A stretch of 64,000 bases of DNA from an uncultured Methanosarcinales archaeon (GTDB lineage Archaea; Halobacteriota; Methanosarcinia; Methanotrichales; Methanotrichaceae): contig CAIQHB010000004.1 in the NCBI GenBank assembly GCA_903871465.1, positions 1 to 64,000 of the forward strand. The letters are read 5' to 3'. Below, one piece after another: positions 2,352 through 4,643 of the stretch; the stretch's first letter is position 1; each line of letters begins with the position of its first letter. The translations under genes were made by a program, and so were the position numbers. Below the pieces are notes generated by a model. The model did no database searches. It was not told where the DNA came from and saw nothing but the letters and a program-made list of their open reading frames with translations.

Positions 2352-4643
2352 GTGACAATAAAAGAGGCTTTGGCAGGTTTGTTCAATAAGGGGGACCTTC
2401 CCCCTCTGCCGGATTCTTTCAGGTTTGGTGTTGCCACGGCAGATCATCAATGCGAGGGTATTGACCCAAATTATGAAGATATCCGTGATTGGTGGGAGAA
2501 GAAGGGTGATCCAAAAGCCGCGCGAAATAAGGCTACCGACTTTTGGTATCTATATGAGGGGGATATTGACAAAGCAAAAGAGCTGGGGTGTTCTGTATTT
2601 CGTTTCTCAATTGCCTGGTCTCGCATCGAGCCTGTGCCGGGCCAGTTCAACCAGGAAGCCATTGAGCACTATAAAAAGCTGATCGATAAGATCATTTCTT
2701 CCAACATGAAGCCGATGTTAACGCTCCATCACTTCACATGGCCGATACATGTGCAGGATCGCGGAGGAATGACGGCTGAGGAATTTCCGGATATCTATGC
2801 CAATTATGTGAGCGTGATAGCAAGTCACTTCGGCAAAGATGTGCCTTACTGGATCACCTTCAATGAACCGAACCTGTTGATGGGAGGCTACCTCAAGCCC
2901 TGGTGGGATGAAAATTACGCCGCCCCTCCCGGCCTCCCCGAAGACGCAACGACGGCAGAGCAGGTGGATGCCGTAGGCATGCTGATCCGCAACCTGTTTT
3001 TGGCCAACAAGAAAGCCTATGAGATCATCAAAGCCGAAAATCCACATGCACAAGTGGGTGTTAATCAGTACTTCTACGGTTTGCCTTTGTGGTTGCAGCA
3101 GCTCGTCAACAGAAATGCATCTGCCATAAAGGGGGCTAGTGACCTTCAAAAGCAGGCTGACCGCCTTGCTTTGAAGCGAGACCTGATCAGAGGAGACGGA
3201 ATCAGCGCATTCAGGGCTAACACGCTGGGCAAGAACAAATTTGATGTGGTATTGGCAGCCTTGACGAAGACCCCTGAACGTATGGAGCAGGCGGCATTCT
3301 CCGAGGACTACTTCATCGCCCGCCAACAGCTCCTGGTGGGGTCAAGCCGCATTGGGGCCGACTTCCAGGATCTGGCGGGTATTGAGATTGTTGTGGTCAG
3401 GGGAACTACATCCGAAAAGAACCTTCCTCGTATCTCCAAGGATTCTCAAGCCGTGGTCTTGGACGACTATCAGAAGGCTCTCCAATACCTCGACCAGAGA
3501 GGAGACTCCGCCCTTCTCGCCGACAATACGATACTTTCCGGGATTATGGAACAAAACCCAGGGAAGTATAAGATCATCGAGCTGCAGCCAACAGGCAGCG
3601 AAAAGTACGCGGCGGCGATTGCCAAGGGTGACCGCGAGCTACTAAATGTGGTCAATTTCACTATTAGAGCCTTCAATGAATCAGAAGATATGGCGCTCTG
3701 GAAGTCTAAATATGAGGAAACCACGGGTCTTGCGACTGAGCTGCCCTTGAAGGATGCGAGAAAGCTCGCATTTGGCGAATCCGAAATAAAAGCCTCCGGG
3801 CCTGGGAAGTCCCCGGGGGCGATAGCAAAAGCCCCTACAGGAACGGTCCTGCGTCGCATACAGGATCGCGGCCACTTAGTTGTCGGAGTCAGGGAAGACC
3901 TTCCTGGCTTCGGATATCGCAACCCTGAAACCGGCGATCTTGAGGGGATCGAGATTATGCTGGCCAATGCAATGGCTGAGAGGATATTTGGCGACGCCTC
4001 AAAAGTGCAGCTAAAACCCCTGGCCATCCAAAAGCGCATGACGGCTGTAGGGCCCGCGCCGAACCTGCTCGACTGGATCTTCAGGCAGTACACGATCCTC
4101 GCCACGATCATGCTGACCAACTGGTGGTATATGGGCATGGCTGGCGAGCTGGATGAATATCTCTGTCCCCGTGGTTGCGAAAACAAGATGGATTTCCTGG
4201 GCCTGGATTATTATTGGGGCATCCCGAGCCTGCACATAGAGCGCCTGCAGCGATTGATAGAAGCCGCTTACAGACACTTCGACCAGGCTCCGGTCTGGCC
4301 GGGGGCGCTCTACGATATTTTGAAAGACCTGAGCCAAAAGTTCCCGGATCGGCCCATTATCATATGTGAAAACGGATCCGTAAAGATAGCAGACGGATGG
4401 GAGAGAGAAAAATACATTCGAGAACACGTGAAGGAGGTACAAAGAGCGATAAGAGACGGAATGGATGTAGAGGCCTATGTCTGTTGGTCGATAACATCAA
4501 ACAGGGAATGGGATCTCGTCTTCAGTGATGCCAGCGATTTTGGGCTGTATAATATCGATCTGGATCATGATCCCTTGCTCACTCGAAAACCAACGGAAGC
4601 CGCAAAGGCATTCAAACAGATCATATTGGATCGAAGAGGTTGA
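2352..4643 (+). CDS. GH1 beta-glycosidase-like protein with inserted family-3 solute-binding domain
   Basis: GH1 motifs: FRFGVATADHQCEG, WITFNEPN (acid/base Glu), PIIICENGS (nucleophile Glu), CWSITSNREW. The central ~285 aa resemble SBP_bac_3. GTG start. Confidence 0.85.
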   Translation: MTIKEALAGLFNKGDLPPLPDSFRFGVATADHQCEGIDPNYEDIRDWWEKKGDPKAARNKATDFWYLYEGDIDKAKELGCSVFRFSIAWSRIEPVPGQFNQEAIEHYKKLIDKIISSNMKPMLTLHHFTWPIHVQDRGGMTAEEFPDIYANYVSVIASHFGKDVPYWITFNEPNLLMGGYLKPWWDENYAAPPGLPEDATTAEQVDAVGMLIRNLFLANKKAYEIIKAENPHAQVGVNQYFYGLPLWLQQLVNRNASAIKGASDLQKQADRLALKRDLIRGDGISAFRANTLGKNKFDVVLAALTKTPERMEQAAFSEDYFIARQQLLVGSSRIGADFQDLAGIEIVVVRGTTSEKNLPRISKDSQAVVLDDYQKALQYLDQRGDSALLADNTILSGIMEQNPGKYKIIELQPTGSEKYAAAIAKGDRELLNVVNFTIRAFNESEDMALWKSKYEETTGLATELPLKDARKLAFGESEIKASGPGKSPGAIAKAPTGTVLRRIQDRGHLVVGVREDLPGFGYRNPETGDLEGIEIMLANAMAERIFGDASKVQLKPLAIQKRMTAVGPAPNLLDWIFRQYTILATIMLTNWWYMGMAGELDEYLCPRGCENKMDFLGLDYYWGIPSLHIERLQRLIEAAYRHFDQAPVWPGALYDILKDLSQKFPDRPIIICENGSVKIADGWEREKYIREHVKEVQRAIRDGMDVEAYVCWSITSNREWDLVFSDASDFGLYNIDLDHDPLLTRKPTEAAKAFKQIILDRRG
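3180..4050 (+). other. Inserted, apparently circularly permuted SBP_bac_3-like domain within GH1
   Basis: Order is FDVVLAALTKTPERMEQAAFSEDYFIARQQLLV ... KYAAAIAKGDRELLNVVN ... linker ... GTVLRRIQDRGHLVVGVREDLPGFGYRNPETGDLEGIEIMLANAMAERI; the canonical N-terminal segment follows the canonical C-terminal segment. Confidence 0.75.

Follow-up and report, generated by a model that had tools for sequence, protein, structure and literature searches.

Here we describe, in a 64,000-nucleotide stretch of Methanotrichaceae DNA (hereafter the window), a GH1 glycosidase gene into which a complete family-3 solute-binding protein (SBP) has been inserted in circularly permuted order (2352..4643, + strand). 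We favour the reading that its product is a cytosolic beta-glycosidase controlled by the permuted SBP, which would sense an amino-acid-like metabolite and couple its binding allosterically to the cleavage of a presumed beta-glycoside; we put the probability of this reading at roughly 0.5.

The open reading frame starts at a GTG codon, has zero internal stops and encodes 763 aa. Pfam detected in it both Glyco_hydro_1 (E=3.6e-56, 190.9 bits versus a cut-off of 22.6) and SBP_bac_3 (E=6.8e-17, 61.9 bits versus a cut-off of 26.4), each in two stretches, with both SBP_bac_3 stretches sitting between the two Glyco_hydro_1 pieces, so that the domain search recovered the nested arrangement which an earlier sequence-only reading of this DNA had proposed. 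The first part of the barrel (residues 17-283; 2400..3200, +; Pfam GH1 at 19-238) comprises strands 1-5 with the helices that lie ahead of the insert, and contains the acid/base glutamate of the TFNEP motif, E172 (2865..2867, +). The second part (residues 573-761; 4068..4634, +), delimited by the second Pfam GH1 stretch and by alignment to a relative that lacks the insert (L069, from a Chloroflexi MAG), comprises strands 6-8 and the nucleophile of the ICENG motif, E673 (4368..4370, +); both catalytic glutamates are thus those named in the earlier reading. The alignment of L069 sets the limits of the insert at ~284-572 (3201..4067, +), refining the previous estimate of ~285 extra residues to 289, and Pfam, alignments and models all identify it as a permuted SBP_bac_3 domain. 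No signal peptide was seen at the N-terminus of the window protein, as had also been noted before, and in many homologues the protein begins just ahead of the first barrel strand; neither the export signal nor the ABC importer partnership of SBP_bac_3 proteins was found. A Pfam GH1 search of the window genome returned no second GH1 match.

Comparison with solved structures revealed that the insert does not retain the native segment order of SBP_bac_3. Aligned as it stands to its best solved-structure match, AncQR (4zv1), insert positions 9-158 correspond to chain residues 65-217 and positions 223-275 to residues 9-57, the order of the two stretches being inverted. When the insert was rotated at its linker, a single collinear match to 4zv1 was obtained (9-233 to 9-217, E=2.2e-22), and the same inversion was seen both for a cyanobacterial homologue against 5eyf and for a profile built from 50 inserts. 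This confirms that the insert is a complete family-3 SBP in circularly permuted order, as first suspected from its sequence. Because the rotated insert aligns in one collinear stretch, with no segment duplicated, it represents a single SBP, and the possibility of two truncated copies is excluded; a chance match is likewise excluded, by the E-values and by conservation. All on the + strand, the insert reads as the native-middle segment of lobe 1 (residues 294-322; 3231..3317), carrying R310 (TPER) and the FSEDYF motif and assigned from known SBP topology and from homologues in which lobe 2 is deleted; lobe 2 (residues 323-423; 3318..3620), carrying the GTT motif and D391 and absent in several homologues; the native C-terminal helices of lobe 1 (residues 424-458; 3621..3725), placed by the model and the rotated alignment; a flexible Gly/Pro/Ala-rich linker (residues 459-497; 3726..3842), marked by low pLDDT and alignment gaps; and the native N-terminal segment of lobe 1 (residues 498-566; 3843..4049), placed by alignments to solved SBPs. 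The linker, KASGPGKSPGAIAKAPTG, connects the native C- and N-termini just as the sequence-only reading had it, overlaps the region modelled at low confidence (469-486), and is variable or gapped among homologues.

An AlphaFold2 model of the whole chain, built with 60 homologues, reached a pLDDT of 85.6 and a pTM of 0.86, with pLDDT below 50 only at 281-283 and in the linker region 469-486, and the insert modelled alone gave 87.0 and 0.85. By Foldseek, the whole chain matched GH1 beta-glucosidases, while the insert matched amino-acid SBPs, best of all the glutamate-bound 5eyf (prob 1.00, 185 columns for 289 residues); an alignment of this partial extent is expected, since Foldseek is a sequential aligner and was here faced with a permutant. 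Model and Foldseek together predict a two-lobed Venus flytrap fold for the insert, at high confidence and within the GH1 chain, which answers the structural doubt attached to the original proposal. In the model, strand beta5 (234-243) lies upstream of the insert and strand beta6 (616-623) downstream of it. In GH1 barrels the chain after beta5 begins on the active-site face, and the SBP would therefore be located on that face of the barrel. By both sequence and fold, the top matches of the window protein include GH1 beta-glucosidases of the type of Streptomyces griseus SGR_2426 (8kap, 9u98; PMC12369401), an enzyme with beta-1,2-glucooligosaccharide specificity that shares the barrel fold, both catalytic glutamates and the minus-1 residues, but is without the SBP insert and about 400 aa long.

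We then considered how widely this architecture occurs. Among 394 sampled genomes of the phylum, a full match was found only in the window genome (G000) and in Methanosaeta sp. PtaB.Bin039 (G031), of another genus in the same family, Methanotrichaceae, whose full-length relative is 58% identical over residues 2-761; a Methanotrichaceae MAG (G015) carries a relative shortened by its contig end. A wide scan of one genome per species (84,980 species) yielded 80 kept loci, the majority of which match residues about 18-761, with Eremiobacterota, Verrucomicrobiota, Cyanobacteria (Crocosphaera, Calothrix) and one proteobacterial MAG among the groups represented. The full architecture is present in >50 bacterial records from Cyanobacteria, Eremiobacterota, Verrucomicrobiota and Proteobacteria, including the named Verrucomicrobiota strains Luteolibacter marinus NBU1238, Roseibacillus ishigakijimensis KCTC 12986 and Haloferula sp. 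BvORR071, so that the homologues of identical layout sought in the follow-up were found at full length in several phyla. The GH1 profile matched 60/60 aligned members and the SBP_bac_3 profile 41/60 (Pfam). In a tree of the GH1 core, built without the insert columns, the insert-bearing sequences and L069 grouped together against insert-free GH1 outgroups (SH-aLRT 99). Because the archaeal presence is scattered, these data suggest transfer from bacteria; plasmid and phage searches gave matches of GH1 or SBP type to part of the query only, and no match covered 80% of it. In the open-licence literature, to which our coverage was limited, no earlier report of a GH1/permuted-SBP architecture was found; GH1 membership and SBP_3 descent are of known kinds, and the permuted insertion appears to be the new part.

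Two genes joined by misassembly or MAG chimerism could in principle produce such a reading frame, and the contig start (about 1-475) does resemble a foreign join. Identical architecture with identical positions is, however, found in dozens of independent assemblies, the three named strains included, and the product is modelled confidently as a single chain. A test for misassembly had been set beforehand, and the full-length homologues in several phyla decided it against this explanation, which we reject as vanishingly improbable. As regards the contig start itself, positions 35-292 of the window encode a bacterial-type ATP synthase subunit c (PF00137) and 366-476 reads like the start of AtpF; the segment 1-475 has about 37-38% GC and adjoins archaeal genes. 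It is probably a chimeric join, lying ahead of the GH1-SBP gene.

The residues on which both activities would depend are intact in the window protein. In the barrel, Q33, H127, N171, E172, N238, Y621, E673, W712, E719 and W720 are near-invariant GH1 positions, with the minus-1 sugar-binding residues Q33, H127, N171, Y621, W712, E719 and W720 all present; E172 is Glu in 58/59 homologue rows covering the position, and E673 is invariant (60/60 rows). In family-3 amino-acid SBPs, an Arg holds the alpha-carboxylate and an Asp the amino group of the bound amino acid. In AncQR and 5eyf the residues aligned with R310 and D391 are this Arg and this Asp, and we take R310 and D391 to be the anchor positions. 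Nearly every two-lobed row retains D391. R310 is kept in 35/36 covering rows that are archaeal, cyanobacterial, proteobacterial, Eremiobacterota or unassigned, and in 2/22 Verrucomicrobiota rows, having been lost in the other 20, so that the main Verrucomicrobiota clade is without the Arg. Across 13 close pairs, dN/dS ranged over 0.04-0.21 in the core and 0.04-0.26 in lobe 1; in lobe 2 it was 0.10-0.29, with the exception of one low-dS pair that gave 0.62. For most pairs, evolution of the insert is some two- to threefold faster than that of the core, and lobe 2 is the fastest-evolving part. The insert is thus maintained by purifying selection, under a constraint weaker than that on the barrel.

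Parts of the insert have been lost within the family. L069, which is 51% identical over residues 16-283 and 55% over 573-761, has about 16 residues where the insert would be and is nested inside the family in the tree, implying loss of the insert; its placement outside was not rejected by the AU test (p 0.083). Lobe 2 alone is missing in six members, L072, L074, L076, L079 and L082 (Eremiobacterota) and L087 (Verrucomicrobiota), which are spread over three tree branches; the deletion spans from the FSxPY strand to the YAVA strand, with the permuted lobe 1 and the remaining gene kept, and less weight is given to L076, which carries unknown bases elsewhere in its insert. The Verrucomicrobiota loss (L087, 6721-8604) is independent of the one-lobed Eremiobacterota members.

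These losses bear on the main rival to ligand control, in which the insert would chiefly serve a structural role or help to recognise the substrate: lobe 1 would pack on the barrel and shape the aglycone site or an oligomer, and the ligand cleft would be a relic that some lineages still retain and that is decaying elsewhere. Retention of lobe 1 where lobe 2 was lost (at least three tree branches), absence of the anchor Arg from the Verrucomicrobiota clade and the rapid evolution of lobe 2 in most pairs are all consistent with such a role. Yet archaea, cyanobacteria, Proteobacteria and most Eremiobacterota still have lobe 2 together with both anchors, and in close pairs lobe 2 is under purifying selection, unlike a mere relic. 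We consider this explanation credible, although appreciably less than evenly probable. Conservation of the amino-acid anchor residues favours the proposed allosteric-sensor role, which is plausible; since lobe 2 has been lost repeatedly and the anchor Arg has gone from Verrucomicrobiota, sensing is not the whole story everywhere, and regulatory and structural or substrate-recognition roles may both be true, in different clades. On the wider history of the family, we tentatively propose, at something short of even odds, a natural ligand-gated glycosidase that arose once, spread among bacteria and a few methanogens, and was later reduced, in some lineages, to a single-lobed or insert-free form.

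For ligand control, we propose that a family-3 SBP was inserted, permuted, into the beta5-alpha5 region of a cytosolic retaining GH1 beta-glycosidase. Through the permutation, the new chain ends would lie next to each other in lobe 1, and both ends of the flytrap would in this way be anchored to the barrel. With an amino-acid-like cytosolic metabolite bound in the SBP cleft, lobe 2 would close on lobe 1 and shift the anchor, and with it the loops that surround the active site of the glycosidase, and this loop movement would raise or lower glycosidase activity.

Known proteins offer partial parallels to this design. AncQR (4zv1), the E. faecium Glu SBP (5eyf), M. tuberculosis GlnH (6h1u) and PEB1a (2v25) share the fold and the anchor Arg and Asp, and are collinear with the window insert after rotation; family-3 amino-acid SBPs are normally extracytoplasmic transport proteins in native order, whereas that of the window is permuted and lies inside a cytosolic enzyme. 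In ionotropic glutamate receptors, to whose ligand-binding domains a homologous insert gives weak sequence matches, an SBP-like fold is also combined with another module, but there the channel interrupts the SBP, whereas in GH1-SBP it is the enzyme that is interrupted, by a permuted SBP. In switch engineering, one domain, often circularly permuted, is placed inside another, and nature seems to have built this permuted-insertion design from an SBP and a glycosidase and retained it across several phyla. The engineered switch RG13 joined an enzyme to a periplasmic binding protein by circular permutation and domain insertion and is ligand-switched (PMC3375305); it is artificial, and its enzyme is the permuted insert and its SBP the host, the reverse of the window protein. 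The lytic transglycosylase MltF, which is reported to be activated by muropeptides at its N-terminal regulatory domain (PMC10746161), likewise joins an SBP_3-type module to a glycan-cleaving domain, and an entry under its name (6hqh) is matched by the insert profile; its module is, however, N-terminal, unpermuted and not inserted, and the protein is periplasmic with another catalytic fold. Their likeness in design (RG13) and regulation (MltF) favours ligand control. If true, the protein would be a sensor-enzyme using a transport-type binding protein inside the cell, and would illustrate a route for the recruitment of SBPs into regulation. The two-lobed, one-lobed and insert-free members form a ready series for the effect of each lobe on catalysis, and the presence of the architecture in named Verrucomicrobiota strains makes it directly testable.

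The gene neighbourhoods were also compared. In the window, the neighbouring genes encode a zinc-type dehydrogenase, a flavin reductase domain protein (same strand, upstream) and a HAD hydrolase (downstream); no transporter gene adjoins the GH1-SBP gene within the window. Across the loci compared, neither transporter genes nor genes of amino-acid pathways are regular neighbours, which, like the faster evolution of the insert, counts against ligand control. A further possibility is that the SBP serves as an accessory module rather than a regulator, binding, beside the GH1 site, the amino-acid-bearing aglycone part of glycosylated amino acids, or else the product once released. The amino-acid anchor residues, an insertion which GH1 topology places on the beta-to-alpha side, the fact that modified amino acids can be recognised by SBP-type modules, and the presence of a deoxyfructosyl-amino-acid SBP among the insert-profile matches would all fit this idea, but amino-acid glycoside metabolism is without a genomic link at the loci compared, and we think such an accessory role unlikely. 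An SDR oxidoreductase gene lies in the vicinity of the GH1-SBP gene at 20 Eremiobacterota loci; at most of these it is the direct neighbour and is transcribed divergently (for example at L031, L032, L075 and L082, gene -1, opposite strand). No recurring neighbour gene indicated a substrate or ligand. Genes for a GMC oxidoreductase (cholesterol-oxidase-like) and patatin-like proteins recur in cyanobacteria and one Eremiobacterota MAG (L016 5499-8925, L017 5158-8759, L020 10675-16842), and a functional link to the GH1-SBP gene is possible; neither SDR- nor GMC/patatin-like genes lie beside the window gene, the only GMC protein of the window genome being a distant one. In genome G006, of the same genus as the window genome, a native-order family-3 SBP domain is fused to the C-terminus of a DAACS-like dicarboxylate symporter (L013, 1393-3462, - strand).
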